A DNA stretch of 64,000 nucleotides from Bradyrhizobium australiense (GTDB taxonomy: Bacteria; Pseudomonadota; Alphaproteobacteria; Rhizobiales; Xanthobacteraceae). Numbering within the stretch: the first letter of the stretch is position 1; each line of letters begins with the position of its first letter. This document shows, one piece after another, positions 40,180 to 60,235 of the stretch. A program made the translations under genes and the position numbers. Under the pieces are notes generated by a model. It saw nothing but the letters and a program-made list of their open reading frames with translations. It was not told the origin of the DNA and searched no databases. The DNA is taken from the NCBI RefSeq assembly GCF_013114825.1, contig NZ_JAAVLX010000011.1, forward strand, positions 62,001 through 126,000, given 5' to 3'.

Positions 40180-40200
40180 TTAGCGCGCAAAGCCGTTTGA
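40129..40200 (+). repeat. Direct repeat copy B (att-like, tRNA-derived)
   Basis: The diverged counterpart of 9859-9930: CAGCGGGCCCCAGG, then TTCGCGC, CCTGGTGCGCC and CACCA, then TTCAAGA and CCGTTTGA at matching offsets. The T-stem still pairs (CCAGG with CCTGG). The anticodon and 5' half are absent, and the right arm of the terminator present behind copy A is missing. The stop of the frameshifted Bug receptor falls inside it. Confidence 0.55.
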
Positions 40201-41232
40201 CGCCGGGCCGCTTAACGAACGATCGAGCGGAATGCCGCAGCTTGTCGAACCTCGCTCATTGGGGCTCGATACCTGCTTGCTTGATGATGCGCGACCATTT
40301 GGTAGTTTCGGCCCGAAGGTAGGCGTCGAGCGCCGCGGGCGTGGCCTGCTCTTCCTCGACGGCGTCATGCTCAGCTCGGCGAAGCGGCTGACCAGCGGCG
40401 GATCCTTAAGCGCCTTCTGCAAGGCGGCGACCAGCGCATCCACAATCGGCTTGGGCGTGTTGCGCGGCGCATACATTCCGTACCAGGTGGTGACGTCGAA
40501 CGCCGGTACGCCAGCCTCTGCCGAGGTTGGCACGTTCGGCAGGGTCGCCGCCCGCTTCTTGCTGGTAATCGCATAACCCGGAATGGTGCCGGCCTGGATA
40601 TGGGGCGTCGGTCCGGTTGCAGGATCGCAATAGACGTCGATGTGACCTGCGATGATGTCGTTGAGCGCCGGTCCGCCGCCCTTGTAATAGATCGGCGTGA
40701 GCTTTGCATCGATCGCGTTCATGAACATCAATCCGCAAAGATGCGAGGCGGAGCCGAGGCCCACATTGCCGTAGGTGACCTTGTCGCCTTGGGCGCGCAC
40801 ATAGGCGACAAGCTCCTTCAGGTCCTTTGCTGGAAAATTCGCTCGCGCCACCAGAAGCATCGGAACATCCGTGACGAGACCGATCGGTGCGAAATCGCCG
40901 ATCGGATCGAACGGCAGCTTGGCATAGAGCGCCGGTGCGGTCGCCTGGCCGACATGCATCAGCAGCAGCGTGTATCCATCCGGCGCTGCCTTGGCGACGC
41001 GATTGGTGCCGAGTGTGCCGCCGGCGCCCACGACGTTCTCGATCACGATCGACTGCTTCAGCGTCGCGCTCATCGATGTTCCAAGCAGCCGCGCGATCAC
41101 GTCGCCAGGTCCGCCGGCCGAGAAGGGAACGACGAGGGTGACCGGTCGGTTCGGGTATTCCTGTGCGAGGGCCGACGGCACCGACAACGACAACAGCAAG
41201 AGCAGCGGAAAAATCGTTTTAAAAAACTTCAT
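40180..41232 (-). CDS. Bug-family periplasmic receptor, frameshifted near its C terminus
   Basis: A 350-residue open frame encoding a tricarboxylate-type receptor. The signal peptide ends near ALAQE, then VTLVVPFSAGGPGD, IENVVGAGGT, KAAPDGYT and YYKGGGPALND. After SMTP the frame becomes Arg/Pro-rich nonsense. In the next frame the normal family ending continues as VEEEQATPAALDAYL then RAETTKWSRIIKQAGIEPQ and stops at 40256. One missing G near 40360 explains this. The native gene was therefore 40256-41232; the present frame reads on into the att-like repeat. The ligand-binding lobes are intact but the last helix is lost, so function is doubtful. Confidence 0.8.
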   Translation of the reverse strand: MKFFKTIFPLLLLLSLSVPSALAQEYPNRPVTLVVPFSAGGPGDVIARLLGTSMSATLKQSIVIENVVGAGGTLGTNRVAKAAPDGYTLLLMHVGQATAPALYAKLPFDPIGDFAPIGLVTDVPMLLVARANFPAKDLKELVAYVRAQGDKVTYGNVGLGSASHLCGLMFMNAIDAKLTPIYYKGGGPALNDIIAGHIDVYCDPATGPTPHIQAGTIPGYAITSKKRAATLPNVPTSAEAGVPAFDVTTWYGMYAPRNTPKPIVDALVAALQKALKDPPLVSRFAELSMTPSRKSRPRPRRSTPTFGPKLPNGRASSSKQVSSPNERGSTSCGIPLDRSLSGPASNGFAR

Positions 41233-41283
41233 TTGGAATTTCCTATCTGCCGCTCGTCCGTCGATAAGCCTTGGCGGGACCGG

Positions 41284-42000
41284 CTATTCCTCCACCACTG
41301 CTTTTTCCCTAGGCGCGGATGTTTGCTCGATCATGCTGAGTGCGGCCACCGCGGCCGCCTTGACGTGGTCGACGCAACACTGCTCGGCGAGGTCTGGATC
41401 GCCATTCTGGATCGCGCGCCAGATCGCGGTGACCTCGCGCAAGCTCTTGTTGATACGTTTCGGGTGCGACATCGACGTAATTCGCAACAGAGTAATGCGG
41501 TCGTGCAGGGGTCTTAGCATTCGCTCGATGAAGGCATTCTGGCAGCCGCCAATCAGCGCCGCATAGAAATCCGTCTTGGCTTCCAGGGCGGCGGTCAAGT
41601 CGCCTTCGGCGAATGCTGCCTTCAATCGCGCCAGCGCGTCCCCGATTCTGCGCACCACGTCTGGATCGCGGAGACGGGCGCATTCACGGCCGGCAAATCC
41701 TTCGAGCACGGCGCGCGCCGCGTACAGCTGTTTTGCTTCCTCGAGGCTGATGGTGCTGACCACCGGACCGCGATGAGGGATGGTATTGACCAAGCCGTCC
41801 GCCTCCAGCACCCGGAGCGCCTCGCGGATGGACGGCCGGCTTACGCCCATCATCTCGCAGAGCTCCCGTTCGACCAGGCGCTGGCCCGGCTTCAGCCTTC
41901 CCGACATGATCGCTTCGCGCAGCTTTTGCGCGACCATCGAGCGAACGGTCGGAACGTCCTCGATTCGAAGCGTGAATTGCAGTTCACCGCGTTTGTCCAT
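41284..42000 (-). CDS. GntR-family transcriptional regulator (FCD subfamily)
   Basis: A 238-residue regulator. The winged helix spans about residues 15-85 (VERELCEMMGVSRPSIREALRVLE), and the FCD domain follows with Asp/His-rich helices (FYAALIGGCQNAFIERML, VTAIWRAIQNGD). It lies between the SDR gene and the frameshifted Bug receptor, all on the minus strand, and is the only local regulator of the 40-55 kb block. An organic-acid inducer is expected from the subfamily. Confidence 0.9.
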   Translation of the reverse strand: MDKRGELQFTLRIEDVPTVRSMVAQKLREAIMSGRLKPGQRLVERELCEMMGVSRPSIREALRVLEADGLVNTIPHRGPVVSTISLEEAKQLYAARAVLEGFAGRECARLRDPDVVRRIGDALARLKAAFAEGDLTAALEAKTDFYAALIGGCQNAFIERMLRPLHDRITLLRITSMSHPKRINKSLREVTAIWRAIQNGDPDLAEQCCVDHVKAAAVAALSMIEQTSAPREKAVVEE

Positions 42001-42158
42001 CGTCTACCGCCCTGGTACCGGCATTGGTTCAATAGCGATTTACGGGCAGAATCATCATCTCCGCAATCTGAACATGCCGCCGGCCGCCCCGGTCAGTATG
42101 ATATTGCAGCTTGATGCTTCAGCCCTTGAATCCCTCACGAAGGGTCGATCATTTGTGC

Positions 42159-42929
42159 TCACGCGACGGCCCAGCCTCCATCAATCGGCAGGATCGCGCC
42201 GGTGATGTCCTGTCCAGCCGGGCTGGAGAGGAAGACAACCATCGCTCCGACGTTTTCCATCCCGATGAACCGCCCGCTTGGCTGGCGCGCCGCGAGGTAG
42301 TCGCGCGTGGTCTCCTCAGCGCTCCGGCCTTCGTCGGCGGCGACCGATGCAATCTTTCGCTGGATAGCCGGCGTCGGCAGGGTGCCCGGGCTGATCGCGT
42401 TGCAGGTGATCCCGCTCGTCGCCGTCTCGATCGCGACGGCCCGGGTCATGCCGAGGATGGCGGTCTTGGTCGTCACGTAGTCGATGCGGTCGGCGACAGC
42501 GCGGGTCGAGTAGATCGAGGCCATATTGATGATGCGGCCCCAGTTGCGCTTCTTCATCGCGGGTAGTGCAAGGCGGATCAGATGAAACGGCGCCGACAGG
42601 TTCACCGCCAGCGCTTCGTCCCATCGTTCCGGTGCAAAGTCCTCGACCGGCGCGAAATGCCGGACCACAGCGTTGTTCACCAGGATGTCAATCGCCCCCG
42701 GCCCGAGCAAATCGGCCATCATGGTTTCGATGCATGCGCGCTGCGACAGGTCCGCGGCAACGCTCGTCACCTCGACATCAAAGCGCGACCGAAGCTGGGC
42801 TGCCGTCTCCTTCGGTTCGATGAGATCATGAAGGATGATGTTGGAGCCCGCGCCGGCAAGGCTTTCCGCCACGGCAAGCCCTAGCCCTGCCGTCGCGCCG
42901 GTGACGAGTGCGCGTTTTCCGTTCAGCAT
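42159..42929 (-). CDS. Short-chain dehydrogenase/reductase (SDR)
   Basis: A 256-residue classical SDR. The cofactor motif TGATAGLG is near residues 10-17, NNAVV is conserved, and the catalytic Tyr and Lys are in DYVTTKTA. The end IDGGWAVA is typical of the 3-oxoacyl-ACP reductase-like group. ATG 42929 starts at the Rossmann strand (MLNGKRALVTG). It lies 19 nt after a carboxymuconolactone-decarboxylase-like gene. It probably oxidises or reduces a hydroxy/keto group of the pathway substrate. Confidence 0.92.
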   Translation of the reverse strand: MLNGKRALVTGATAGLGLAVAESLAGAGSNIILHDLIEPKETAAQLRSRFDVEVTSVAADLSQRACIETMMADLLGPGAIDILVNNAVVRHFAPVEDFAPERWDEALAVNLSAPFHLIRLALPAMKKRNWGRIINMASIYSTRAVADRIDYVTTKTAILGMTRAVAIETATSGITCNAISPGTLPTPAIQRKIASVAADEGRSAEETTRDYLAARQPSGRFIGMENVGAMVVFLSSPAGQDITGAILPIDGGWAVA

Positions 42930-42948
42930 CGCGGTTGCGGCTCCCGGG

Positions 42949-43332
42949 TTACTTCTTCTGATCCAGCTCGTCGAACACTTCGCGCGCATTGCGAAAGGCG
43001 TCGACGCCGGCCGGCACGCCGCAATAGATTGCGACCTGCATGAAGACCTCGCGTATTTCCTCGCGGGTGGCGCCGTTAGTGAGCGCGCCCCGAACGTGAG
43101 TCTTGAGCTCGTGCGGACGATTGAGCGCGCACAGCATTGCGAGGTTGAGGAAGCTGCGGGTCTTGTGCGAGAGGCCGTCGCGGCCCCACACATAGCCCCA
43201 ACAATATTCTGTCGTGAGGTCCTGCATCGGACGATTGAAGTCATCGGCCGTCGCGATGGCCTTGTCGACGAATTCATCACCGAGGACGCTTTTGCGAATT
43301 TCGAGTCCCCGGTCGTATGTTGCCTTGTCCAT
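42949..43332 (-). CDS. Carboxymuconolactone decarboxylase (CMD) family protein
   Basis: A 127-residue all-helical CMD-family protein of the PcaC type rather than the AhpD type. YCWGYVWGRDGL, KTRSFLNLAMLCALNRPHELKTH and AIYCGVPAGVDAFRNAR are the family segments. It lacks the AhpD CxxC. PcaC decarboxylates 4-carboxymuconolactone in protocatechuate degradation, but no other pca gene is present, so another cyclic acid or lactone is likely. A close paralogue lies at 53346-53726 on the other arm of the cluster. Confidence 0.9.
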   Translation of the reverse strand: MDKATYDRGLEIRKSVLGDEFVDKAIATADDFNRPMQDLTTEYCWGYVWGRDGLSHKTRSFLNLAMLCALNRPHELKTHVRGALTNGATREEIREVFMQVAIYCGVPAGVDAFRNAREVFDELDQKK

Positions 43333-43377
43333 GACGATTTCCAGATCCTTGCGAGTTGGAGTGCGCTAATTCTTCGG

Positions 43378-44598
43378 CTAGATCTTGGGCCAGAACGGCT
43401 GGGCCAACGCCAGTTGTGGCGGGAACACGGTGACGGGCACGCCGGATTGCCACTGCACGATGGTCATGCCGGCGCCGACGCGACGGCCCTTTTCGTCGAA
43501 CTTGATCTCGCCGAGCGGATAATATTTCGAGGGGCCGCCATCCATTGAGCGCAAGGCTTCGGCGACCGAGACCCGGTCGGCCTTGCCGGCCTTCTCGAGC
43601 GCGTCCTTGATGATCCACATGTCGCCGTAGGTGGAGATCGCGTTCTGCGTCATCCACGGTTCCTTGTAGCGGGATTTGAGCTCGGCGATCAGCGTCTCGT
43701 GGCCCTTGGCGCCCCAGCTAGCGACGCAGGTGAGCACGCCCTGCAGCAATTCCGGGCTGACTGTCTGCAGCATATCAGGCTCGGCGATGGCGATGCCGAA
43801 CGAGATGGTCGGGATCTTGCCTTGTCCCAGCCCAAACTCGTTCATCTTTTCGAGCAGCAGTTTTGCGTCGGAAATCACTGTCGGCAGGAAGAAGAGCAGG
43901 TCGGGCTTCGCCGCTCGGACCTTTTGAACCAGCGAGGTGGCGTCGGCGAGCGGCGGGGTGAAGGTTTCATCGACGATCAGTTGCAGGCCGTTCTCGGCAA
44001 GCAGGCCTTCCCGCATCGACTTCGCGGAGGCGACCGATGCGCCGGTATTGTCGGTGACGATCGCAACCGTCTTGGGCTTCTTGCCCGACGCGGCTTCCGC
44101 AAGCTTCACGATCTGCGGCAGGGCCTGCTTGGCCTGAGAGCCGGCGGTTGCGGACGTCTGGAAGACATATTTGAAGCCGCGATCGGTGATTAGATCGGAG
44201 TAGGAAAGGGTGAGCACCGGCAGATTGGCGCGCTCCGTCACTTCGGTAACCGCGAGCGTAAACGAACTCAGATAGGCGCCGCTCGCTGCTACCAAGTCTG
44301 GCTCCTGCGCCACCATCCGTTGCGCCGCGTTCTTCGCCTTTTCCGTGGTGTCGCCGGAATCGAGCACGACCAGCTTGAGCTTGGCGCCGCCGAGCGACTT
44401 CACGCCGCCCTGCGCGTTAATGTGATCCACAGCCATCTCGGCCCCATGGCGCATCACCAGTCCCGGCCGTGCATAGAGGCCGGAGACCGGCACCAGCAAT
44501 CCAACTTTCACTTCAGATGGTGCTTGCGCCCACGCACGGGGCGTCATTAATCCGATCGAGGCGCCGGCAAGCAGCGTTCGTCGCGTAATCTTGCTCAT
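43378..44598 (-). CDS. Branched-chain amino acid-type ABC transporter substrate-binding protein
   Basis: A 406-residue LivJ/LivK-like binding protein (PBP type 1). The N terminus has a twin-Arg sequence (TRRTLLAGAS) and cleavage near RAWAQ, suggesting Tat export. HINAQGGVKSLGGAKLKLVV and GDTTEKAKNAAQRMV are typical. It is a tandem paralogue of the next gene upstream (44640-45893); about two thirds of residues match by eye. It probably binds an organic acid or aromatic compound rather than leucine. Confidence 0.92.
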   Translation of the reverse strand: MSKITRRTLLAGASIGLMTPRAWAQAPSEVKVGLLVPVSGLYARPGLVMRHGAEMAVDHINAQGGVKSLGGAKLKLVVLDSGDTTEKAKNAAQRMVAQEPDLVAASGAYLSSFTLAVTEVTERANLPVLTLSYSDLITDRGFKYVFQTSATAGSQAKQALPQIVKLAEAASGKKPKTVAIVTDNTGASVASAKSMREGLLAENGLQLIVDETFTPPLADATSLVQKVRAAKPDLLFFLPTVISDAKLLLEKMNEFGLGQGKIPTISFGIAIAEPDMLQTVSPELLQGVLTCVASWGAKGHETLIAELKSRYKEPWMTQNAISTYGDMWIIKDALEKAGKADRVSVAEALRSMDGGPSKYYPLGEIKFDEKGRRVGAGMTIVQWQSGVPVTVFPPQLALAQPFWPKI

Positions 44599-44639
44599 GA
44601 CAATGGCTCCTTGAAAATCTCGAAAGAGGCTTGTTCAGA

Positions 44640-45893
44640 TCAGGAGGATTTCTTCGGCCAGAAAGGCGCCGCCTGCGCGAGATCAGGCGGATAGACGGTG
44701 ACGGGCACGCCAGACTGCCACTGCACGACCACCACGCCGGCGCCGACACGACGGCCCTTTTCGTCGAACTTCAACTGACCGCCGGGATAGTGTTTCGAGG
44801 GGCCGCCATCCATTGTCCGGAACGCTTCTGCAACCGCACGCCGATCGGCCTTGCCGGCCTTTTCGAGCGCCAGCTTCATCAGCCACATGTCGCCGTAGGT
44901 CGAGATGACGTTCTGCGTCATCCAGGGCTCCTTGTACTTGGCCTTGAGCTCGGCGATCAGGTCCTCATGGCCTTTCGAGCCCCAGTTCGCGACGATCGTC
45001 ATGATGCCCTGGACGACTTCGGGGCTGACACTTTGCAGCATGTCGGGTTCGGCAATCGTGATCGAAAACGAGACCGTCGGAATCTTGCCCTGGCCCAGCC
45101 CGAACTCGTTGATTTTCTCAAGACCGAGTTTGGCGTCGGATACCGCGTTGGGCATGAAGAGCAGCAGGTCCGGACGGGCTGACCTGACCTTCTGGATCAG
45201 CGGCGTGGCGTCGGAAAGCGGCGGCGTCCAGACTTCCTCCAGAATCAACTGAAGGCCCTCCTGCGCGAAGATCTTCTCTTTCAGCGCCTTCGCGGTCGCA
45301 ACCGACGTCGCAGTATTGTCCATCAGCATCGCCACCGTCTTCGGACGCTTGCCCGACGCCTTTTCGGCGAGCTTCATCAGTTCGGGCAGGCCGAGTTCGG
45401 ACTGCCGGCTTGCGGGTGCCGCGGTCTGGAAGATGTATTTGAAGCCACGCTCGGTCAGCAGATCCGAATAGGAGAGGGTGAGCATCGGCAGTTCGGCGCG
45501 CTCGGTGACCTCGGTCACCGCCAGCGTGAAGGAGCTGAGATATGAGCCGGTGGCGGCGACCAGATCGGTCTCCTGCGCCACCATACGCTGCGCAGCGTTC
45601 TTGGCCTTTTCGGTGGTATCGCCGCAATCGATCACGACGAGCTTGAGCTTGGCGCCGCCGAGCGACTTGATGCCGCCCTGCGCATTGATGTGTTCGATGC
45701 CCATCTCAGCGCCCATGCGCATCACTTGGCCGGGGCGGGTATAGATGCCGGAAAGCGGCACGATCAGGCCGACCTTGACCTCGGCCGGCGCTTGCGCCCG
45801 CGCGATCGTCGAAAGTCCCATGGCGGCTGCGCCGGAAAGCACGGTTCGGCGCGTGAGCGACGTTTTTGACGTCTTGTTATTTTGTTGGCTCAT
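44640..45893 (-). CDS. Branched-chain amino acid-type ABC transporter substrate-binding protein (paralogue)
   Basis: A 417-residue binding protein closely related to its neighbour. Tat-like motif LTRRTVLSGAA, cleavage near IARAQ, then the PBP type 1 domain with HINAQGGIKSLGGAK. ATG 45893 is chosen because GGGAGGAAAA stands right before it; the ORF can extend 4 codons. The ligand-pocket region differs from the paralogue (TSATAGSQAKQAL versus TAAPASRQSELGL), which may extend the substrate range of one transporter. Confidence 0.92.
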   Translation of the reverse strand: MSQQNNKTSKTSLTRRTVLSGAAAMGLSTIARAQAPAEVKVGLIVPLSGIYTRPGQVMRMGAEMGIEHINAQGGIKSLGGAKLKLVVIDCGDTTEKAKNAAQRMVAQETDLVAATGSYLSSFTLAVTEVTERAELPMLTLSYSDLLTERGFKYIFQTAAPASRQSELGLPELMKLAEKASGKRPKTVAMLMDNTATSVATAKALKEKIFAQEGLQLILEEVWTPPLSDATPLIQKVRSARPDLLLFMPNAVSDAKLGLEKINEFGLGQGKIPTVSFSITIAEPDMLQSVSPEVVQGIMTIVANWGSKGHEDLIAELKAKYKEPWMTQNVISTYGDMWLMKLALEKAGKADRRAVAEAFRTMDGGPSKHYPGGQLKFDEKGRRVGAGVVVVQWQSGVPVTVYPPDLAQAAPFWPKKSS

Positions 45894-45926
45894 TTTTCCT
45901 CCCAATGGCTTGTTGATCGTTTGTTG

Positions 45927-46634
45927 TCACATGCCGAGATAGGCCTTGCGCACGCGGTCGTCCGCTCGCAAGGTTTCGTTGTTGCCTTCGAGCGCGACGC
46001 GACCGGCTTCGAGGACGTAGCCGTGATCGGCGGATTCCAGTGCTTCCGCCACGCGCTGTTCGACCAATAGAATTGTCAGCTTCGATTGCCGGCGGATCTC
46101 GATCAGCCGTTCGAAGATGAAATCGGCTACCGTGGGCGCGAGGCCCATCGAAGGTTCATCCAGCATCAGAAGTTTTGGCGACGACGCCAATCCCCGGCCG
46201 ACCGCCAGCATCTGCTGCTGTCCGCCCGACAATGTTCCTGCGAACTGGTCGCGGCGCTCGGCGAGCACGGGCAGCCATTCGAAGATGCGCTCGATGTTGC
46301 GCTTCCAGTCGCGGTGGCCTGCTTCGGTCATCGCACCCATCTCGAGATTTTCCATCACCGTGAGCGAGGGAAAAACCTGTCGGCCTTCGGGGACATGGGC
46401 GATGCCGAGATGCGGGCGGCGCGCGGGATGGATCGACAACAGGTCGGTCCCCTCGAACGTGATCGTGCCGGCGCTCGGCCGCACGATTCCGGAGATCGTC
46501 TTGAACAGCGTGGTCTTGCCGGCGCCGTTCGGGCCGACGATGGCGACGAACTGCCCCTGTTCGACCTTGATCGAGACGCCGTTCAGAACCGGAATTGCCG
46601 AATAGCCGGCGGTCAGCCCTTCAATTTGGAGCAT
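45927..46634 (-). CDS. livF: Branched-chain amino acid-type ABC transporter ATPase (LivF)
   Basis: A 235-residue ATPase. Walker A GPNGAGKTT, signature LSGGQQQMLAVGRGL, Walker B LLMLDEPSMGLAP and VEQRVAEAL are present, and the end YVLEAGRVALEGNN is typical of LivF. ATG 46634 lies at the conserved start; it overlaps the fused permease-ATPase gene by 14 nt. It forms the second nucleotide-binding subunit next to the LivG-like domain of that fusion. Confidence 0.93.
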   Translation of the reverse strand: MLQIEGLTAGYSAIPVLNGVSIKVEQGQFVAIVGPNGAGKTTLFKTISGIVRPSAGTITFEGTDLLSIHPARRPHLGIAHVPEGRQVFPSLTVMENLEMGAMTEAGHRDWKRNIERIFEWLPVLAERRDQFAGTLSGGQQQMLAVGRGLASSPKLLMLDEPSMGLAPTVADFIFERLIEIRRQSKLTILLVEQRVAEALESADHGYVLEAGRVALEGNNETLRADDRVRKAYLGM

Positions 46635-48399
46635 GGGCCATCCATCTTTTGCCGAGATAGGCCTCGATGACGCGGCTGTCGCGCGTGACAGCTTCCGGTT
46701 CGCCCTCCACAATCACTGCGCCATGATCGAGAACGAGGAAACTGTCGACCAGGCGGACCATGGCCTGCATGGTATGCTCGATGATCGCGATCGTCATGCC
46801 GTCGCGGGCGAGACGCTGGATCACCGTCACGACCTCGTTGGCTTCGTCATGCCCGAGGCCCGCCAGCGTTTCGTCGAGCAACAGGATTCGGGGTTGCCCG
46901 GCGAGCGCACGGGCCAGTTCCATCAGCCGCAATTCCTTGGTCGTGAGCTCGCCGGCGATGCGGTCGGCAATGTCGGACAAGCCGACACGCGTGATCGCCT
47001 CGGTCGCCAGCTGCTTTGCTTCGGCGTCCGTCCTGGCGCGGACATAGGCGCCCACCACGACATTGTCCGAAATCGACATACGCAGGAACGGACGCATGAT
47101 CTGGAAGGTCCGGCCGATGCCGGCCTCGCAGAGCTCGTGTGGCTTGCGGCCTGACATGTCGCGCCCGTCGAGCAGAATCTCGCCGGTGCCGGGTCGCAGG
47201 AATCCGTTCAGCAGATTGAATAGTGTGGTCTTGCCGGCGCCATTCGGGCCGATGATTCCAAGGATCTCATTGCGCCGCAGTTTGAAGCTGACGTTTTGGA
47301 CCGCCTTTAGTCCGCCAAAGGACCGCGACAGGTTGCGGACTTCGAGCACCACTTCGCCGGCGCCCTTAGGCCGTTCCGGGCGTGACCGGCTGGCGATGGC
47401 GGCGGCAGGTTGAACTGGCGCGCTCGGGGTCGCCGCAGCGGGCGAGGTCACGCGCTTCCGCAAGAAATCGCGCAATTTCCAGAACAGTCCCTCAGGCGCG
47501 ACCAGGATGACCGATATGATCGCAAGACCGAAGATCACGCCTTGAATGCCGGGAAAGCGCGAACCCGCCTCAGCGTTGAGGGTTTCGGCAAGCGGGATCA
47601 GGATCACGGAGCCGATCACCGGTCCCCAGACCGTTCCTACCCCTCCGAACATCGCGACCGTCAGCGCCTGCGCGGATACCAGCATGCCGAACACCGATTG
47701 CGGGGTCACCACCAGCAGCACGACGGCGTAGAACCCGCCGATCGCCCCGGCAATCGCCCCGCTCAAGGTGATGGCGCGCAGCTTCCAGGCCAACGTGTTG
47801 ATGCCGGCTGCCTCGGCCGCGGCTTCGTTCTGCTTGATCGCCAGCAGTGCCATGCCGAACCGCGATTTTTCGATCACCCGGGTGAGCAGGATCGTCCCGA
47901 GCATCATGGCGAGCGCCAGCAAAGTGTAGAGACGGGGATCCGAAAACTGCATGTAGGCGATCGGATTGTCGCGCTTGATCGGTAATGTAACTTCCTGGAA
48001 GCCGAGCCATTCGAACACGTAGAGAATGGCGAGCGGATAGGCGAGCATCGCCAGCGCGAAGTAGTGTCCCGACAGCCGGAATGTCGGAAATCCGATCAGG
48101 AACCCGGCGATGCCGCCAAGCATGGCTGCGATCGGGATCAGCATCCACGGCGAAAGATCGAAATAGATCTGACCGAGCGCAGTGGTGTAGGCGCCAATTC
48201 CGAAGAACGCGGCATGGCCGAACGAGATCAGGCCGGTATATCCGCTGAGCAGATTCCAGGATAAGCCGAACACCGCCCACACCGGCACCAGCGTCATCAC
48301 CAGCTGGTAATACGAATTGGTGACGCTCAGCGACAGCGCAGCATAGAGCGCGGTGAAAACAAGAATGGGGAGGAGCGATCGCAGGTTTTGCATCGTCAC
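46621..48399 (-). CDS. Fused ABC permease-ATPase (LivM-LivG fusion)
   Basis: A 592-residue two-domain protein. Residues 1 to about 320 are a LivM-type permease (LSWNLLSGYTGLISFGHAAFFG, ~8-10 helices). A Pro/Ala-rich linker at about 320-350 follows. From about 350 on is a LivG-type ATPase with Walker A GPNGAGKTT and Walker B ILLLDETLAGL. The ABC signature is degenerate (LTTKELRLMELARAL instead of LSGGQ-like), as in some LivG proteins. GTG 48399 overlaps the LivH stop (GTGA); ATG 48393 is the alternative. Fusion fixes a 1:1 ratio of permease and ATPase. Confidence 0.92.
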   Translation of the reverse strand: MTMQNLRSLLPILVFTALYAALSLSVTNSYYQLVMTLVPVWAVFGLSWNLLSGYTGLISFGHAAFFGIGAYTTALGQIYFDLSPWMLIPIAAMLGGIAGFLIGFPTFRLSGHYFALAMLAYPLAILYVFEWLGFQEVTLPIKRDNPIAYMQFSDPRLYTLLALAMMLGTILLTRVIEKSRFGMALLAIKQNEAAAEAAGINTLAWKLRAITLSGAIAGAIGGFYAVVLLVVTPQSVFGMLVSAQALTVAMFGGVGTVWGPVIGSVILIPLAETLNAEAGSRFPGIQGVIFGLAIISVILVAPEGLFWKLRDFLRKRVTSPAAATPSAPVQPAAAIASRSRPERPKGAGEVVLEVRNLSRSFGGLKAVQNVSFKLRRNEILGIIGPNGAGKTTLFNLLNGFLRPGTGEILLDGRDMSGRKPHELCEAGIGRTFQIMRPFLRMSISDNVVVGAYVRARTDAEAKQLATEAITRVGLSDIADRIAGELTTKELRLMELARALAGQPRILLLDETLAGLGHDEANEVVTVIQRLARDGMTIAIIEHTMQAMVRLVDSFLVLDHGAVIVEGEPEAVTRDSRVIEAYLGKRWMAHAPN

Positions 48400-49346
48400 G
48401 TCCTCTCGACCATGCGTCCGAAGAAGCCTTGCGGACGGAAGAAGATGATCAGGAGGAAGACGGCGAAGATCGCCGCGTTCTGCAGTTGCGTCGGCAGCAC
48501 CAGCGTCGACATCTGCTGCACCAGGCCGATGGTCATGCCGCCCCAGAAGGCGCCGATAATGCTGCCCATGCCGCCGAGCACGACGCCGGCATACATGACG
48601 ATGACATATTCAACGCCAACGAAGGGATGAAACGGATAGTTGGTGGCGAGCAGGCCGCCGGCAATCGCTGTTATGCCGGTGCCGAGCGCGAAGGCAACCC
48701 GATGCGCGCGATCGACGTCGATCCCCATATAGGTTGCCGCCGTCGGATTATCGGCTGCGGCCCGCAGCGACTTTCCGAGCCGCGATCGCGTGATCAACAG
48801 CGTCAGCAGTATCATCGTTACCAGGGAGACTACGGCGTCGATGCCGCGCGCCTTGTTGACGAAGACACTGACGTCATGGAACAACGGCCCGAGCTCCCAG
48901 GCCGAGCTCGACAGCGGCGTGCGAATCGATGCCAGCACCGAACCGAACACGATCAGGCCGCCGTTTTGCAGGATCAGCGCGATCCCGAGCGTCAGAATGA
49001 GCTGGGCGTAGTGACCTTCACCCTCGAGGGAGGTGGTGCGCGTGCCTGATACGCGCGAGATCAGGGCGAGATGGACCGCGTAACCGAACACCGCGAGCAC
49101 TGGACCGGCAAGAAGAATTGCCACGAACGGCCCAATGGCGTTGCCGAAAGTGGCCTGCACGCCGAGCGCGGTGAAGAAGTAGAACGCCGAATACATGCCG
49201 AGCATCATGAAGTCGCCCTGGGCGAAGTTGATGACCCGCATGACGCCGAAAATCAGGCCGAGCCCGACACACATCAGGCCATAGACCGCGCCGATCAGAA
49301 GCCCGGCGGTCAAAGCCTGCAGAAATCCTTCGAGCGCTGCGGTCAC
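48396..49346 (-). CDS. livH: Branched-chain amino acid-type ABC transporter permease (LivH)
   Basis: A 316-residue inner-membrane permease. YGLMCVGLGLIFGVMRVINFAQGDFMMLG near the N terminus is the LivH signature, and GGMGSIIGAFWGGMTIGL lies near the C terminus. It has about eight helices. The stop overlaps the fused gene start. It is 103 nt downstream of a PrpD-family gene on the same strand, so transporter and enzymes may be co-transcribed. Confidence 0.93.
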   Translation of the reverse strand: MTAALEGFLQALTAGLLIGAVYGLMCVGLGLIFGVMRVINFAQGDFMMLGMYSAFYFFTALGVQATFGNAIGPFVAILLAGPVLAVFGYAVHLALISRVSGTRTTSLEGEGHYAQLILTLGIALILQNGGLIVFGSVLASIRTPLSSSAWELGPLFHDVSVFVNKARGIDAVVSLVTMILLTLLITRSRLGKSLRAAADNPTAATYMGIDVDRAHRVAFALGTGITAIAGGLLATNYPFHPFVGVEYVIVMYAGVVLGGMGSIIGAFWGGMTIGLVQQMSTLVLPTQLQNAAIFAVFLLIIFFRPQGFFGRMVERT

Positions 49347-49449
49347 CGCTCACCTCGCATCACGCGGAATAATATGGGACTTGGACTTGCTGCCGGCGTC
49401 ATCGGCCCTCGTTTGCTCATTGCGTCCCCTATCTTCTTGTTCTCATTCA

Positions 49450-50847
49450 TCATGATGCTGGCCGGAGCAGCCGCCCCGCCGGCTCGAGCCGGCATTGTCT
49501 GGCGATGACGCCGCTGTCCGGCAGCAGTTCGCAGCCGTCGACAAGCTCCTCCAGACTGCGCGCGCGATTGCCACCGATGGCGTCAGTGGCGGCCTGACGA
49601 AAGCGGGTGCGGATTTCCCGCGGCGTGGCCGCTATGACATTGTCAAGGCGCCGCCGGACCGTATTTCCATTGCGCAGGACGATCGAGATTTCGGCGCCCT
49701 GCTGAGCCGGGAAGGCGGCGGTGAAGGTGGAATCACATTGCAGGTCGGTCTGCTCGACCAGACGCAGGATCTTGGGATCATTGATCTCTGCGTAATTGTC
49801 CTCTTCGATTGCGCCGCGGGCGAGCACCGCGGCGACGCTGAAGGGAATGCTCATCTTGGCTTGCAGCGCATTCCGGTAAGGCCCTCGGGAATCGCAGCCG
49901 GGATAACGCGCCGCCGCTTCGGCAACGAGGATCGAAACCGCCTCGATCTCTTCCGGATTCTTAAGCTCGCGAGCCGCCCGCAACGCGGCCTGCGCGGCGG
50001 TTTGCGCAAAATTGCAGGCAGGAACCTGCTTGTTGTAGACGGCCATGATTTCCGGCTCCGAGCCTGCAAACAAACGGATGCCGGTAGGCGCGGGCTGGCG
50101 CCGGTAGGCCGCAAACAGTCCGGCTTCGCCTTCGAGGATGGTTTCCGAAGCACAGGCGCCGGCTTCCGCCAGTTCAATCGCCGTGATGGCGTTGCGGGCG
50201 GCAAAGCCCGGGTGGAAATACATCTCCGAACCGCCGGCATGCGGCCATTCGTTCAGGCCGGACGATGTATTGGCGGCAACCGAAATTGCGCTCGTCGCTG
50301 CATCTTCGGTAAGACCCAACGCGCGACTTCCCGCAAGAGCTGCTCCCAGCGGAGCGACGAGGCCGGTCGGCCGATAGAGGCGCGCCAGATCGGCGTCGAA
50401 GAGGGCTCGCCCGATCTGCGCGCCGGCCTCGTAGCCGACGATCGCAGCCGCAAGCAGGGTGGCGCCAGACAGCGACGTTCGTTCGGACAGCGCGAGCAGC
50501 GTCGGCCAGTTCACGACGCCATGATGGCAGATGCTGGCGGCGTGCATGTCTTCGCGCACCAAGCCATGGCCGAGCGTCGCGTTGGCGAAGGCCGCGTCGC
50601 CTGGCGTCGCAAGCTTGCTTGTCCCGATGATGGTCGCGCCGTTCTCGGTGTGGCGCGCGACGCTGATCGCCTGACGGCTCCACGGATGATGACGTGCCTC
50701 GAATGCGCAGGAAAGGAAGTCCAGAAGGCAAATCTTGGCCTTGGCGATGACGCTCTCGTCGAATTGGCCGATCTCGACGGCGAGCGACGCGCGGGCCAGT
50801 TGCCGCGCCAGAGGCGTCTCGTTCGATCCGCTCGACCCGATTGTCAT
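49450..50847 (-). CDS. MmgE/PrpD family protein
   Basis: A 465-residue protein of the 2-methylcitrate dehydratase / cis-aconitate decarboxylase superfamily. The helical N-terminal domain has KICLLDFLSCAFEARHH and the segment HGVVNWPTLLALSE. The C-terminal lid domain has AKMSIPFSVAAVLARG. ATG 50847 follows AGGAACG. No 2-methylcitrate synthase or lyase is nearby, so propionate metabolism is unlikely; a hydroxy-acid dehydration is the best guess. A long antisense open frame covers it but has no features of a gene. Confidence 0.9.
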   Translation of the reverse strand: MTIGSSGSNETPLARQLARASLAVEIGQFDESVIAKAKICLLDFLSCAFEARHHPWSRQAISVARHTENGATIIGTSKLATPGDAAFANATLGHGLVREDMHAASICHHGVVNWPTLLALSERTSLSGATLLAAAIVGYEAGAQIGRALFDADLARLYRPTGLVAPLGAALAGSRALGLTEDAATSAISVAANTSSGLNEWPHAGGSEMYFHPGFAARNAITAIELAEAGACASETILEGEAGLFAAYRRQPAPTGIRLFAGSEPEIMAVYNKQVPACNFAQTAAQAALRAARELKNPEEIEAVSILVAEAAARYPGCDSRGPYRNALQAKMSIPFSVAAVLARGAIEEDNYAEINDPKILRLVEQTDLQCDSTFTAAFPAQQGAEISIVLRNGNTVRRRLDNVIAATPREIRTRFRQAATDAIGGNRARSLEELVDGCELLPDSGVIARQCRLEPAGRLLRPAS

Positions 50848-50879
50848 CGCAATCGTTCCTCGCTCGGCTTTCCCAGATC

Positions 50880-51773
50880 TTAGCCGCGCATTTCCACACC
50901 GGCCCACTCTTCAAGGACCTTTGCGATCGACGTGAAATCGGACGACGCGCCATACTTGGCGTTGGTGATCGCAAGCATCTGCCGAACCACGGATCCGCAG
51001 ACCATTGGCACACCCATGGCCTCGGCTTCATCGATGCAAAGCCGCACATCCTTGTAGGAAAGACCAGTGGTGAAACCGAAATCGAAGGTGCCGGGAAGCA
51101 CGGCGCGCGGAAACTTGTCTTCGGATGCGCTGTTGCGGCCGCTGCTGACATTGATGATGTCGATCAGCACCTTGGCGTCGACGCCGCCCTTGACGCCCAT
51201 AGCGACCGCTTCCGACGTGATCACCAGGGCGGCCGCCGCCATCAGATTGTTGGCGAGCTTTGCAGTCTGCGCCGTGCCCGGTTTGTCGCCGGTATAAAAC
51301 AGTTTTCCGAAGTGCTTCAGGATCGGCTGCACCGTCTCATAGGTGTCCTTGGGGCATGACACCATGACGGCGAGCGTGCCGTTCACCGCGCCCTTGATGC
51401 CGCCGCTGACGGGAGCATCCACCAGCGTCAGATTTCTGGATTTGAACCCTTCTGCGATCAGCTTGGCCGCGCCGGGGCCGCTGGTGGACAGGTCGATTAC
51501 GATGCTGGCGCGGTTTCCCGCAATGATTCCGTCGGGTCCCAGCGTGACGGTCTTGACGATGTCGGGAGTCGGCAGGCTCGCCAACACGATATCCGCCGAC
51601 GAAGCAACCTCGGCTGGGGATTTTGCCAGACGCGCCCCGCGCGCGACGAGCGGATTGGTGGCCTCGCTTTGCGTGTCGTAGACGCACAGGGAGTAGCCGG
51701 CATCCATCAATCGTCCGGCCATCGGCCCACCCATGCGGCCCGTTCCCACGAAGCCGATCGTCTCTCCCGCCAT
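50880..51773 (-). CDS. NAD(P)-dependent beta-hydroxyacid dehydrogenase (3-hydroxyisobutyrate dehydrogenase family)
   Basis: A 297-residue beta-hydroxyacid dehydrogenase. The Rossmann motif GFVGTGRMGGPMA is at residues 7-19. DAPVSGGIKGA is the substrate loop, and KLANNLM carries the catalytic Lys. The family includes tartronate semialdehyde reductase and 3-hydroxyisobutyrate dehydrogenase. It is the first gene of the minus-strand arm, directly facing the second PrpD gene over a 183-bp promoter region. Confidence 0.92.
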   Translation of the reverse strand: MAGETIGFVGTGRMGGPMAGRLMDAGYSLCVYDTQSEATNPLVARGARLAKSPAEVASSADIVLASLPTPDIVKTVTLGPDGIIAGNRASIVIDLSTSGPGAAKLIAEGFKSRNLTLVDAPVSGGIKGAVNGTLAVMVSCPKDTYETVQPILKHFGKLFYTGDKPGTAQTAKLANNLMAAAALVITSEAVAMGVKGGVDAKVLIDIINVSSGRNSASEDKFPRAVLPGTFDFGFTTGLSYKDVRLCIDEAEAMGVPMVCGSVVRQMLAITNAKYGASSDFTSIAKVLEEWAGVEMRG

Positions 51774-51956
51774 CGTCTCACTCCTTGTCGCGCCGCCTGA
51801 GGCGGGCGTTCGTTGTTCTTGTCGCGGCAGGGCCTCCCGGCCGCGTTTCGTCGAATTTCAAGATTGTCAGTCAATCTGTCAAGCATAAGATTCTTGTCGA
51901 CAGGTCGCGGTGCGTCGGAATAGGGTCGGAAAAACAAGGTCCGAGGAATTCGCTCC

Positions 51957-53300
51957 GTGCGGCAAGATGAAGCGCAAGGCGCCAGCACAACGCTCGCCGA
52001 TTTCGTTGCCAGCATCGCGTGGGCGGATGTCGCGGCGCAAAGTCACGAGGCGAAACGCTCGATCCTGAATTTCTTCGCGACCGCGCTGGGATCGGCGAAT
52101 GACCCTGCCGTTACCGGCGCGTTGCGGACGCTATTGCCATTCAGCGGCGCTGCGACATCCGCGGTGATCGGCCGTCCGGAACGGCTCGATGCGATGGGCG
52201 CGGCGTTCGTCAACGCCGTTTCGGCCAATCTGCTTGATTTCGACGACACCCACCTCGATACGATCATTCATCCAGCGGCGCCGGTCGCGGCGCCCGTGCT
52301 TTCGTTGGCGCAAGCGCGAGGATTTTCGGGGCAAGCCGTTCTCACCGCATTCACTCTCGGCGTGGAAATTGAATGCCGCGTCGGCAACGCCGTATCCCCG
52401 GGACATTATGCACGTGGCTGGCACATCACCTCGACCTGCGGGGTGTTTGGCGCCGCCGCTGCCTGTGCCTGGCTGCTCGGGCTTTCGGCAGGCCAGATTG
52501 CACATGCGATCGGAATTGCGGCCAGTCAGTCGGCGGGGATTGTCGAAAATCTGCCGAGCGCAGCCAAGAATGTCAGTGTCGGCAATGCAGCGCGCAATGG
52601 CCTATTCGCGGCGTTGCTCGCGGCCGAGGACTATACCGCATCGCCACAGGCGATTGAAGGGCCGCTGGGCTGGGCTCGCGCCATGGGAGACGAACCCGAT
52701 ATTGGGCGTCTGACGGGAAATCTCGGCAAGACCTGGGAAATCGCGAAGAATACCTACAAGCCGTATCCGGCGGGCATCGTGTTTCATGCCGTGATCGACG
52801 CCTGCTTCAATTTGCGGGCAAAGCTTAACCGGCGCATCGACGATATCGCCCTCATCACGGTGCAGGGCTCCGCGCTTCTGCTGGCGCGGGGCGACCGTCC
52901 GGTTCGCAACGAACGTGATGCGCGGGTCAGCATTCATCATTGCGCCGCCTGCGCGCTGCTGCTGGGTACGGCCGGTGTCGCCGAATTCTCGGACGCGATC
53001 GTGTTTCGGCCCGATATCGCGGCTTTGCGTCAGAAGGTAGGGGCGGTGCTCGACGCTTCGCTTCCGGATGGCGCTGCGCGCGTCACGATCCAACTGGCGT
53101 CCGGAGAGACGTTCAGCGAGGCCGTGATGGCTGCAAGGGGCAGTCTTGCCGACCCGTTGTCGGATGGCGATATCGAAGCGAAATTGCGCGATTGCGCGCG
53201 GCTGGGTGGAAGCGATTGGGATATCGATCGCATCATCGGCGACGTTTGGCGTCTCGACACGCTTGCTGACGTCTCGAGTCTGGTGAGGGTGCATGGCTGA
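51957..53300 (+). CDS. MmgE/PrpD family protein (second copy)
   Basis: A 447-residue MmgE/PrpD protein, diverged from the copy at 49450-50847. LLDFDDTHLDTIIHPAAPV is the well-conserved active-site region of this superfamily, and HITSTCGVFGAAAACAWLLGL and YKPYPAGIVFHAVIDA follow. The frame opens at GTG 51957. The first copy reads HGLVREDMHAASICHHG in the same region, so the two probably act on different substrates. It starts the plus-strand arm. Confidence 0.9.
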   Translation: MRQDEAQGASTTLADFVASIAWADVAAQSHEAKRSILNFFATALGSANDPAVTGALRTLLPFSGAATSAVIGRPERLDAMGAAFVNAVSANLLDFDDTHLDTIIHPAAPVAAPVLSLAQARGFSGQAVLTAFTLGVEIECRVGNAVSPGHYARGWHITSTCGVFGAAAACAWLLGLSAGQIAHAIGIAASQSAGIVENLPSAAKNVSVGNAARNGLFAALLAAEDYTASPQAIEGPLGWARAMGDEPDIGRLTGNLGKTWEIAKNTYKPYPAGIVFHAVIDACFNLRAKLNRRIDDIALITVQGSALLLARGDRPVRNERDARVSIHHCAACALLLGTAGVAEFSDAIVFRPDIAALRQKVGAVLDASLPDGAARVTIQLASGETFSEAVMAARGSLADPLSDGDIEAKLRDCARLGGSDWDIDRIIGDVWRLDTLADVSSLVRVHG

Positions 53301-53345
53301 GCCCGCCGGTTGAAAGCCGTACTCAAACAATGGAAGGAGCCGATG

Positions 53346-53726
53346 ATGACTGAGTTGTTCGACAAGGGGTTGAAGGTCCGCAAGGAAGTGCTTGGCGAAG
53401 AGTACGTCAACAAATCCATCGCAGGCGCCGACGAATTCACCCGGACGATGGCGGAGTGGTCGACCGAGTTTTGCTGGGGCGCATTGTGGACCCGGCCTGG
53501 ACTCGACCGCCGCACCCGCAGCATCGTCAATCTGGCGATGCTTGGAGCGCTGAACCGGCCTCACGAACTGAAGCTGCATGTCAAGGGAGCGCTGAAGAAC
53601 GGCCTCACCAAGGATGAGATCAAGGAGATTCTGCTTCAGGTCGCCGTGTATTGCGGCATCCCCTCGGGTATCGATGCGTTCCGAAACGCGCGGGAGGCGT
53701 TCAATGAAGTTGAAACGAAATCCTGA
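53346..53726 (+). CDS. Carboxymuconolactone decarboxylase (CMD) family protein (second copy)
   Basis: A 126-residue PcaC-type protein, paralogous to 42949-43332. It shares FCWGALWTRPGL, RTRSIVNLAMLGALNRPHELKLH and AVYCGIPSGIDAFRNAR. ATG 53346 is 6 nt after GGAG; ATG 53343 is the alternative. It is 2 nt before the metallo-hydrolase gene, so the two are tightly linked and may act on a lactone and its product. Confidence 0.9.
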   Translation: MTELFDKGLKVRKEVLGEEYVNKSIAGADEFTRTMAEWSTEFCWGALWTRPGLDRRTRSIVNLAMLGALNRPHELKLHVKGALKNGLTKDEIKEILLQVAVYCGIPSGIDAFRNAREAFNEVETKS

Positions 53727-53728
53727 TC

Positions 53729-54562
53729 ATGGCCGAGGAGGAGTATGAACTCTTTGCCATCCGTTATGCTACCCGCGATGCGCGGCGGAGCGAGCATTTC
53801 ATCGGTGGCGATCCGCATGATGGGCCAATGCCAATGGACTACTTCGTGTGGGTCGCAAGGGGCGGAGGCCGTACCTTTGTCATCGATACCGGATTCAACG
53901 TGGAAGTCTCGAACAAACGAAAGCGGACGTTCCTGCGCTGCCCGGTGGAGACGCTCAGTGCGTTTGGTATCAATGCGAACGAGGTCGAGGATGTCATCCT
54001 TACACATCTGCATTACGACCACGTCGGCAATTTCGACCGCTTCCCCAACGCGCGATTCCATCTGCAGGAGCGCGAGCTGACGTATGCCACGGGACGCTTC
54101 ATGCGATATCCGAGGTTATCGCATTCATTCGAGGTCGATGATATCTGCGGGATTGTACGGCTGAACTATGCGCGACGCGTCTTGTTCTATGATGGCGACG
54201 CGGAGCTCGCTCCCGGCCTTACGGTACACGCGGCCGGCGGCCATTCCGCCGGGCTTCAATTCGTTCGCGTCAGGACCCGCCGAGGATTTGTCGTACTCGC
54301 CTCCGATGTCAGCCATTTTTACGAGAACATGGCAGCGGAACGTCCGTTTACGACCGCGCTGCATATCGGCGAAATGCTGGAAGGGTTCGCCCGTCTGCTG
54401 GCGCTAGCGCCGGACGAAAGCCATATCGTTCCAGGACACGACCCACTGGTGATGAAGCTTTATCCGTCCCCGAGCCCGCAGCTCGAGGGCGTCGCCGTGC
54501 GCCTTGATGTGCCGCCATCGGCCGATGCGCCCGTTCGCGCCGACTATCTTTCGCGGCATTAG
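53729..54562 (+). CDS. Metallo-beta-lactamase-fold hydrolase (lactonase-like)
   Basis: A 277-residue MBL-fold protein. The zinc motif is THLHYDHVGN (HxHxDH), followed by His in GGHSAG, Asp in LASDVSHFYEN and a late His in VPGHDPLV. FVIDTGFNVEV matches the N-acyl-homoserine-lactonase branch. Given the CMD and PrpD neighbours, hydrolysis of a catabolic lactone is as likely as quorum quenching. It is the last gene of the plus-strand arm. Confidence 0.9.
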   Translation: MAEEEYELFAIRYATRDARRSEHFIGGDPHDGPMPMDYFVWVARGGGRTFVIDTGFNVEVSNKRKRTFLRCPVETLSAFGINANEVEDVILTHLHYDHVGNFDRFPNARFHLQERELTYATGRFMRYPRLSHSFEVDDICGIVRLNYARRVLFYDGDAELAPGLTVHAAGGHSAGLQFVRVRTRRGFVVLASDVSHFYENMAAERPFTTALHIGEMLEGFARLLALAPDESHIVPGHDPLVMKLYPSPSPQLEGVAVRLDVPPSADAPVRADYLSRH

Positions 54563-56989: not shown

Positions 56990-57367
56990 ATGGAAAAGTT
57001 GGAACTTGAGGCGATGCCTCTTGATGATCTGTGGTCTCTCCACGAGCAACTCACCGCTGTTTTATCCAGGCGGATTATTGCGGAGAAGCGCCAGCTTGAA
57101 AACCGGCTGGTCCAACTCAACCGCGGAAAAATTGCGCAGGCATCGGTTGCGGTCGATGTAAAATCAACCAAAACAGGTCGTAAGAGTCCTCGGCGCCATT
57201 ATCCCAGGGTTTTCCCAAAATATCGGAATCCAGCAGTGCCGTCCGAAACCTGGTCTGGACGTGGTAAACAGCCTCGATGGCTGGTTTCCGCTTTGAAGGC
57301 CGGTGGCAGGATTGAGGACTTCAAAATCCCCGGTGCGCAGCAGGGCAAGGTGAGAGCGCTGCGTTGA
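56990..57367 (+). CDS. H-NS-family DNA-binding protein (HvrA-like)
   Basis: A 125-residue H-NS-like protein. The N-terminal oligomerisation helix (LEAMPLDDLWSLHEQLTAVLSRRI) leads to a basic linker (TKTGRKSPRRHYP). The C-terminal AT-hook-like DNA-binding motif is YRNPAVPSETWSGRGKQPRWL. ATG 56990 is chosen by similarity to HvrA-type starts; in-frame earlier starts would add an unconserved leader. Such proteins silence AT-rich acquired DNA, and it sits next to the AT-rich gap. Confidence 0.88.
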   Translation: MEKLELEAMPLDDLWSLHEQLTAVLSRRIIAEKRQLENRLVQLNRGKIAQASVAVDVKSTKTGRKSPRRHYPRVFPKYRNPAVPSETWSGRGKQPRWLVSALKAGGRIEDFKIPGAQQGKVRALR

Positions 57368-60111: not shown

Positions 60112-60235
60112 CCAGTCCACTTTTTCGGGGGGGAAGATCAGTCCAGTAATTCCAACTGTCGTGCCGGCTGCGCGGCGATAGAGAAAGGCGACGATCCATC
60201 GCGGCATCCGCCTTTGAGAACAGCGCTAGTGAGAC

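Follow-up and report, generated by a model that had tools for sequence, protein, structure and literature searches.

A divergent gene cluster of Bradyrhizobium australiense as a candidate system for the uptake and catabolism of a lactone-forming carboxylic acid

In vitamin B6 degradation a short-chain dehydrogenase/reductase (SDR; pyridoxal dehydrogenase) oxidises its substrate to a lactone, and a lactonase of the metallo-beta-lactamase (MBL) fold (4-pyridoxolactonase) acts next. The same logic of SDR plus MBL-fold lactonase appears in a 14-gene divergent cluster of Bradyrhizobium australiense, located in a 64,000-nucleotide stretch (contig C3 of our numbering, NZ_JAAVLX010000011.1, positions 62001-126000; assembly GCF_013114825.1, genome size 7.44 Mb) that is called the window here. 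The structural model of the cluster MBL matches 4-pyridoxolactonase with a template modelling (TM) score of 0.69-0.70; however, the protein misses the 4-pyridoxolactonase equivalog cut-off (43.1 vs 325 bits) and the cluster lacks pyridine-ring enzymes. The pca branch of the beta-ketoadipate pathway shares with the cluster its PcaC-type carboxymuconolactone decarboxylase (CMD) proteins and its lactone chemistry, but the cluster has neither PcaB nor PcaD nor a dioxygenase, and pcaBDC lies elsewhere in the genome. A third relative is the Pseudomonas itaconate/methylsuccinate cluster which, in the accessible parts of PMC12290011 and PMC9875883, brings an MmgE/PrpD protein together with a lactonase and an importer; there the MmgE/PrpD protein is described as a methylsuccinate isomerase (PMC12290011), and the 2-hydroxyparaconate lactonase as a 127-aa protein annotated as a ring-cleaving dioxygenase (PMC9875883). 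The window cluster differs in having no CoA transferase, hydratase or lyase: none of the Pfam domains of CoA transferase, itaconyl-CoA hydratase and citramalyl-CoA lyase was detected among the 15 cluster proteins. The component enzymes belong to known families, and no named pathway was found for their combination. The original prediction, made from the sequence of the window, had spoken of an undescribed route, which agrees with the open-access literature (titles and abstract starts; most subscription journals were outside the scope), where no description of the gene set was found.

The cluster consists of 11 genes on the minus arm and three on the plus arm, separated by a 183-bp promoter region. 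Moving away from the promoter, the minus arm encodes: a beta-hydroxyacid dehydrogenase, PrpD-A, LivH, a LivM-LivG fusion, LivF, the binding proteins SBP2 and SBP1, CMD1, the SDR, a GntR-FCD regulator and TctC1. The plus arm encodes PrpD-B, CMD2 and the MBL, which is then faced from the opposite strand by TctC2. The gaps between genes within the arms range from -14 to 158 bp. Gene calls and domains bear out the predicted architecture: divergence around 51.85 kb with the foreseen gene content and order, one MmgE/PrpD and one CMD gene on each arm, two Liv-type binding proteins in tandem, and the MBL start 2 bp after the CMD2 stop.

Conservation of the gene set and its promoter

An MBL match at E ≤ 1e-40 was present in 190 of the 195 Bradyrhizobium genomes. 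At least 59 genomes, including that of the window, carry an MBL with at least 80% identity (57 full length, two partial), and the other matches listed are mostly at about 50%; the closest among those listed (94-96%) belong to B. murdochi, B. retamae and Bradyrhizobium sp. LMTR 3. Loci of 20 kb each were fetched from 33 of the other 58 genomes with an MBL at or above 80%. Twelve genes (GntR, SDR, CMD1, SBP1, LivF, LivMG, LivH, PrpD-A, dehydrogenase, PrpD-B, CMD2 and MBL) are kept in 29 of these 33 loci, indicating that the grouping is more than chance, since genes of both arms are retained; one of the 29 (L072) lacks SBP2, a further weak SDR match is present in 17 of the 33, and one locus (L071) is truncated by a contig end. 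In a second, overlapping set of 33 loci from named Bradyrhizobium strains, the five genes nearest to the promoter (PrpD-A, dehydrogenase, PrpD-B, CMD2 and MBL) are all present in 27, including B. retamae, B. algeriense, B. jicamae, B. yuanmingense and B. diazoefficiens SZCCT0449. Among loci whose MBL is only 53-66% identical, one (L075) retains most of the minus arm and another (L079) is a rearranged cluster with genes from both arms. The claim that the neighbourhood is shared by relatives, on which the original prediction had staked its case, survived this comparison, and full or partial enzyme cores also recur in other genera together with other importers (see below).

The intergenic region of the window was aligned with those of 30 loci. 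A pattern drawn from this alignment, GATTG[CT]C[AT]G[TA][CT]AA[TGA]CTGTCAAGC[AT][TG]AA.ATT, fits all 31 sequences; this 31-bp block is followed by a conserved GTCGACA block, and the remaining intergenic region is mostly variable. A matrix of the block finds a single site in the window and no site in 37 other loci, a strict matrix with a small pseudocount which therefore overlooks degenerate sites. By its conservation the 31-bp block is likely to be a shared operator, and it may be bound by the GntR-FCD regulator. Elsewhere other blocks precede the dehydrogenase gene. Exactly one copy of ATTTCTGTTATG is located 105-126 bp before the dehydrogenase start in each of five loci (L086, L087, L162, L173 and L175), all of them modules with a LysR-like gene (assigned by reading the sequence); and TATCGATATC is located 75-95 bp before it in four others (L101, L104, L190 and L200), three of which (the first three) contain a LacI-type gene. 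Both blocks were noticed post hoc; on this evidence, regulator class and upstream block appear to switch together.

Three observations concern additional copies within the genus. B. yuanmingense CCBAU 10071 (L146, L150) harbours two copies of the cluster, with the genes from SBP1 to MBL observed in both and each MBL about 80% identical to that of the window. The B. australiense genome encodes a second dehydrogenase-CMD pair (contig C13, locus L214, 8986-10412), 48% and 67% identical to the proteins of the cluster; neither an MBL nor a PrpD match lies in the surrounding 20 kb. It also encodes a second MBL (contig C6, locus L120, around 16877-18600), about 50% identical and adjacent to a 28% identical dehydrogenase; MBLs of this kind are matched in most of the Bradyrhizobium genomes listed, and the pair is possibly a sister pathway.

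Beyond the genus, we analysed a class-wide sample of 385 alphaproteobacterial genomes, the two Bradyrhizobium being excluded from the counts. At the E-value limits used, there were 73 MBL matches in 61 genomes, 90 dehydrogenase matches in 61, 140 CMD1 matches in 124 and 21 PrpD-B matches in 19, all of them lower bounds, as few candidates were scored per genome. Pairs within 10 kb numbered 23 for MBL-dehydrogenase (21 genomes; 0.43 expected under uniform placement), 27 for MBL-CMD (22 genomes; 0.39) and 25 for dehydrogenase-CMD (22 genomes; 0.50), that is, 50-70 times the expectation for uniform placement in a 4.5-Mb genome, which was the sole baseline. The pairs with PrpD-B were three for the dehydrogenase (3 genomes, vs 0.16) and three for CMD (3 genomes, vs 0.13).

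The whole or partial core is also found on annotated plasmids of alpha-, beta- and gammaproteobacteria, with five importer types. Genes in loci other than that of the window were called with a simple caller of our own which misses some, and statements on modules rest mainly on tblastn and on annotated records. MBL, SDR, PrpD, dehydrogenase and CMD are found together in: Paracoccaceae La 6 (TctAB nearby); Variovorax SRS16 plasmid 3 (TctC and Liv-type genes nearby); Paraburkholderia largidicola (MFS); Rhizobium daejeonense and Rhizobium sp. ACO-34A (BMP-type ABC); and Pseudoroseomonas (Liv ABC), whose dehydrogenases are only 31-32% identical to that of the window. The core is partial in Variovorax SRS16 plasmid 4 (no PrpD), in Marinobacter M3C (MBL, CMD, dehydrogenase, aldehyde dehydrogenase and TRAP, no PrpD) and in Sphingobium EP60837 (no CMD in the stretch examined; it adjoins pcaF and a CoA-transferase gene). 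Four other records do not qualify as modules: Aminobacter aminovorans has only the dehydrogenase and PrpD, Aminobacter MSH1 a dehydrogenase plus a weak SDR, pAKD34 a PrpD flanked by two TctC-like genes, and OTU4NAUVB1 a PrpD plus TctC. The record of Shinella PSBB067 is unannotated at this place. An aldehyde dehydrogenase family gene is located beside the core in six of 43 loci whose genes were mapped, and CoA-transferase and thiolase genes adjoin two modules, which suggests CoA-dependent breakdown of the product in those two.

In the two Rhizobium plasmids (L204, L241) an aminotransferase gene follows the core, and amidases and an HpaB-like monooxygenase adjoin it; L204 additionally encodes a 2,5-dihydroxypyridine dioxygenase. 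Because of these neighbours, the modules on these plasmids may act on a substrate derived from pyridine.

Enzymes and importer of the cluster

The two MmgE/PrpD proteins had been taken for duplicates. This was ruled out: they share 27.3% identity over 425 columns and their active sites differ. Both exceed the cut-off (32.1 bits) of the N- and C-terminal Pfam domains of the family (PrpD-A 168.3 and 79.1, PrpD-B 217.4 and 101.3 bits). PrpD-A misses the three 2-methylcitrate dehydratase PrpD equivalogs of NCBIfam (49.7 vs 950, 48.6 vs 575 and 43.8 vs 458 bits), and PrpD-B, scoring lower still, misses them too. The nearest solved relative of PrpD-B is iminodisuccinate epimerase (9.4e-48). PrpD-B retains H105, H156, K204 and K268, the carboxylate-binding His/Lys set reported to be conserved in the family (PMC12290011), as do all 13 aligned relatives; it has in common with iminodisuccinate epimerase (2hp0/2hp3) and cis-aconitate decarboxylase the catalytic residues as well as the fold.

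PrpD-A shares the fold and lacks the active-site His and one Lys of these enzymes. In the ten aligned PrpD-A proteins the His156 column is Arg, within a fixed RPTG motif, and the Lys204 column is Met; the second Lys is retained. Three further sequences at 46-57% identity agree with these changes (one with Val for Met), and a 38% identical relative on pAKD34 has RPLG and Ile at the changed columns. Among five relatives at 29-34% identity, four have the canonical residues and the fifth is mixed. The AlphaFold2 model of PrpD-A (mean predicted local distance difference test, pLDDT, 82.8; below 50 at residues 203-205 and 269-272) has the MmgE/PrpD fold; its match with mouse IRG1 has a Z-score of 43.9 (430 residues, rmsd 2.5 Å), and human cis-aconitate decarboxylase is tied with it. 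Relatives with at least 44% identity were found in only three of the 249 other genomes of a 250-genome sample, and two of the three lie within 10 kb of MBL and CMD matches. From its aligned residues, PrpD-A is best described as a small subfamily with an altered active site. As stated in the accessible part of PMC12290011, the characterised MmgE/PrpD enzymes act on substrates with a C4 1,4-dicarboxylate part, and the residues binding this part are conserved in all members (in the Pseudomonas enzyme, the named residues are His88, Glu91, His102, His152, Lys202 and Lys266). We equated Pseudomonas His152 and Lys202 with the changed PrpD-A columns by residue spacing; if this reading is right, PrpD-A would contradict the published universal conservation of the dicarboxylate-binding residues.

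The MBL keeps H93, H95, D97, H98, H172, D193 and H237 in all 30 aligned sequences, corresponding to the HxHxDH, His, Asp, His binuclear metal site of N-acyl homoserine lactone (AHL) lactonases. Its AlphaFold2 model (mean pLDDT 89.6) is closest to a Pseudomonas poae AHL lactonase (8x78; TM about 0.8, 20-21% identity), followed by AiiA-type lactonases and, lower, by 4-pyridoxolactonase. It is far under the AHL-lactonase equivalog cut-offs (AiiA, AttM, AidB, YtnP and AhlS; AiiA 61.5 vs 375 bits, the others lower). The lactone-forming acid of the original prediction fits this predicted lactonase fold and metal site.

The prediction had also stated that no pca genes are present. This holds for PcaB, PcaD and PcaGH, none of which was detected among the 15 cluster proteins; however, CMD1 lies at the cut-off of the PcaC profile TIGR02425 (155.9 and 155.1 bits in two runs, cut-off 155.7; CMD2 135.3), and a canonical pcaBDC, with PcaB and PcaD over their cut-offs, is located on contig C2, outside the cluster. 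The CMD protein of this pcaBDC scores 155.3 bits, and because it and CMD1 score alike, the profile score is uninformative on whether CMD1 is a PcaC. The best solved relative of the beta-hydroxyacid dehydrogenase is 2-(hydroxymethyl)glutarate dehydrogenase (3cky), with 3-hydroxyisobutyrate dehydrogenases close behind; the protein has the superfamily domains and is under the cut-off of the 3-hydroxyisobutyrate dehydrogenase profile TIGR01692 (205.6 vs 291.6 bits).

The permease, ATPase and binding-protein domains expected of a Liv ABC importer are all present (PF02653, PF00005, PF12399 and PF13458). The cut-offs of the equivalogs specific for leucine, isoleucine and valine are missed by both binding proteins (86.4 and 83.3 vs 477 bits) and by LivF (230.5 vs 441 bits). 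The nearest solved relative of SBP1 is 8WCH.

Proposed function and alternatives

The cluster appears to be a real, conserved catabolic unit. We propose, with a probability of roughly 0.5, that its genes are co-regulated and serve to import and break down a carboxylic acid that forms a lactone. This proposal is supported by the 12 genes kept in 29 of 33 loci, the promoter block in 31 of 31 sequences, the co-location and the plasmid modules; by the regulator-specific blocks upstream of the dehydrogenase and the aldehyde dehydrogenase, CoA-transferase and thiolase neighbours; and by the metal site and lactonase fold of the MBL, the residues of PrpD-B and the nearest structure of the dehydrogenase. 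The substrate is most likely a di- or tricarboxylic acid that is branched or hydroxylated, a class favoured by the known PrpD substrates, by the nearest solved dehydrogenase and by the TctC genes on both flanks. Both arms are served by a single divergent promoter that contains a conserved block; in the proposed route, the binding proteins and the Liv-type system would deliver the acid. The SDR and the beta-hydroxyacid dehydrogenase, both of NAD(P) type, would oxidise hydroxyl groups, one oxidation leading to a lactone or lactonisable acid and the other to a beta-keto or formyl acid; the MBL would open the lactone and a CMD protein would decarboxylate. PrpD-B would epimerise, isomerise or (de)hydrate a 1,4-dicarboxylate, and PrpD-A may catalyse a related reaction on a substrate for which the usual His and Lys of the family are dispensable.

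Several observations weigh against this proposal. Three loci whose MBL is 83-87% identical (L052, L059 and L060) contain only MBL and TctC in the 20 kb fetched; five of the seven loci of the genus with an MBL at 53-66% lack the cluster; and six loci of the named strains (L126, L132, L133, L134, L135 and L137) are without at least one promoter-near gene, some of them from contig ends. Class-wide, 38 of the 73 MBLs and 56 of the 90 dehydrogenases have no partner within 10 kb, MBL-PrpD-B pairs within that distance number only three (3 genomes, vs 0.11 for uniform placement), and the co-location baseline is the simple one given above. Since importers and regulators vary between modules, their substrates may differ.

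The main rival is a route similar to pca, acting on the ring-fission product of an aromatic or alicyclic compound, in which PrpD would replace the cycloisomerase and the MBL would replace PcaD, and CMD would decarboxylate a carboxymuconolactone-like acid, the route ending near 3-oxoadipate. The position of CMD1 at the PcaC cut-off, one plasmid module beside pcaF and 3-oxoacid CoA-transferase genes, the HpaB-like monooxygenase near two Rhizobium modules and the 2,5-dihydroxypyridine dioxygenase near one of them point in this direction. It is weakened by the separate pcaBDC of the genome and by the absence of a ring-cleaving dioxygenase among the 15 cluster proteins, and the C4 1,4-dicarboxylate substrates of the characterised MmgE/PrpD enzymes (PMC12290011, accessible part) do not suit it, so that we regard it as unlikely. 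A chance neighbourhood of two independent organic-acid operons with no common pathway would explain why both PrpD types occur only in L042 and L079 among the 43 mapped loci and why regulators differ from module to module; it is likewise unlikely, as the 12 genes retained in the genus come from both arms, the promoter block is kept and even the rearranged L079 groups genes of both arms.

A specific version of the lactone-acid proposal, the breakdown of acids of the paraconate, 2-hydroxyparaconate or itatartarate type (dicarboxylates with a hydroxymethyl branch, and the gamma-lactones that they form, e.g. fungal itaconate derivatives), seems improbable as it stands. By analogy, the MBL would open the lactone, the dehydrogenase would oxidise the hydroxymethyl group, an aldehyde dehydrogenase and CMD would follow, and PrpD-B would epimerise. 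The C4 1,4-dicarboxylate part common to characterised MmgE/PrpD substrates (PMC12290011, accessible part), the 2-(hydroxymethyl)glutarate dehydrogenase as nearest relative, the flanking TctC genes and the existence in Pseudomonas of a 2-hydroxyparaconate lactonase of a different family (PMC9875883, accessible part) are consistent with this version, but its chemistry is purely an analogy, the cluster proteins include no CoA transferase, hydratase or lyase of the itaconate type, and the window cluster has no aldehyde dehydrogenase. Very improbable is a quorum-quenching AHL lactonase whose products the other genes would scavenge. In structural model and profile searches the MBL comes closest to AHL lactonases; against this, it scores far under the cut-offs (61.5 vs 375 and 51.3 vs 390 bits), its nearest structure is only 20-21% identical, and it is linked to CMD and dehydrogenase genes. 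AHL breakdown is not known to require either.

Public plasmid records label MBL relatives as 'N-acyl homoserine lactonase family protein'. If the proposed import and catabolic system is right, the MBL of this lineage is a catabolic enzyme tied to a decarboxylase and a dehydrogenase, and caution is therefore advisable with quorum-quenching annotations. More tentatively, the modules might represent a transporter-swappable pathway for lactone-forming carboxylic acids in many soil- and plant-associated Proteobacteria, including a new PrpD-A reaction without the usual His and Lys. The cluster provides a defined gene set for finding which organic acid these rhizobia draw from soil or plants.

Gene layout and neighbouring features

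The features of the cluster are listed in Table 1. Its start had been placed at 40256, which is near the end of another TctC1 reading frame: TctC1 is frameshifted near its 3' end (40180-40330). As L042, L053 and L055 have intact orthologues, the frameshift reads as a recent mutation or a sequencing error. At the other end, the predicted extent leaves out the adjoining TctC2 gene, which is matched at 60% identity or more in eight of the 33 Bradyrhizobium loci. Pairwise identities are 59.1% for CMD1/CMD2, 72.2% for SBP1/SBP2 and 42.7% for TctC1/TctC2.

Table 1 Features of the divergent cluster and its promoter region (window positions).
Feature	Position	Strand	Domains and remarks
TctC1, tripartite tricarboxylate-type binding protein	40180..41232	-	PF03401 3e-61
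GntR family regulator with FCD domain	41284..42000	-	PF00392, PF07729
SDR dehydrogenase	42159..42929	-	Top profile 3-hydroxybutyrate dehydrogenase, under its cut-off (244.7 vs 258 bits)
CMD1, PcaC-type carboxymuconolactone decarboxylase family protein	42949..43332	-	PF02627; TIGR02425
SBP1, Liv-type periplasmic binding protein	43378..44598	-	PF13458
SBP2, Liv-type periplasmic binding protein	44640..45905	-	PF13458; 72% identity with SBP1
LivF-type ATPase	45927..46634	-	PF00005; LivF profile under cut-off (230.5 vs 441 bits)
LivM-LivG fusion, permease and ATPase	46621..48399	-	PF02653 at 34-297, PF00005 at 367-512; single 592-aa open reading frame
LivH-type permease	48396..49346	-	PF02653
PrpD-A, divergent MmgE/PrpD subfamily	49450..50847	-	PF03972, PF19305
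Beta-hydroxyacid dehydrogenase, 3-hydroxyisobutyrate / 2-(hydroxymethyl)glutarate dehydrogenase-like	50880..51773	-	PF03446, PF14833
Divergent promoter region, 183 bp	51774..51956	.	Between both arms
Conserved 31-bp block, likely operator	51862..51892	+	Degenerate alignment pattern; conserved GTCGACA block follows
PrpD-B, canonical MmgE/PrpD active site	51957..53300	+	Nearest solved relative iminodisuccinate epimerase
CMD2, PcaC-type CMD protein	53343..53726	+	PF02627; TIGR02425 135.3 vs 155.7 bits
MBL-fold lactonase-like hydrolase, complete binuclear metal site	53729..54562	+	PF00753
TctC2, second tripartite tricarboxylate-type binding protein	54648..55616	-	PF03401; adjoins cluster

ARAGORN found no tRNA anywhere in the window. 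The region beyond TctC2 (55617-61000) has few called genes and lower G+C content, with an integrase-core fragment at 59688-59891 (rve, under the Pfam cut-off), and probably represents mobile-element remains. On the other side, the minus strand at 22111-35623 encodes two FGGY sugar kinases, an ABC permease, an alcohol dehydrogenase and solute-binding proteins (one clear, one weak); this block is a sugar or polyol operon, separate from the lactone-acid cluster.

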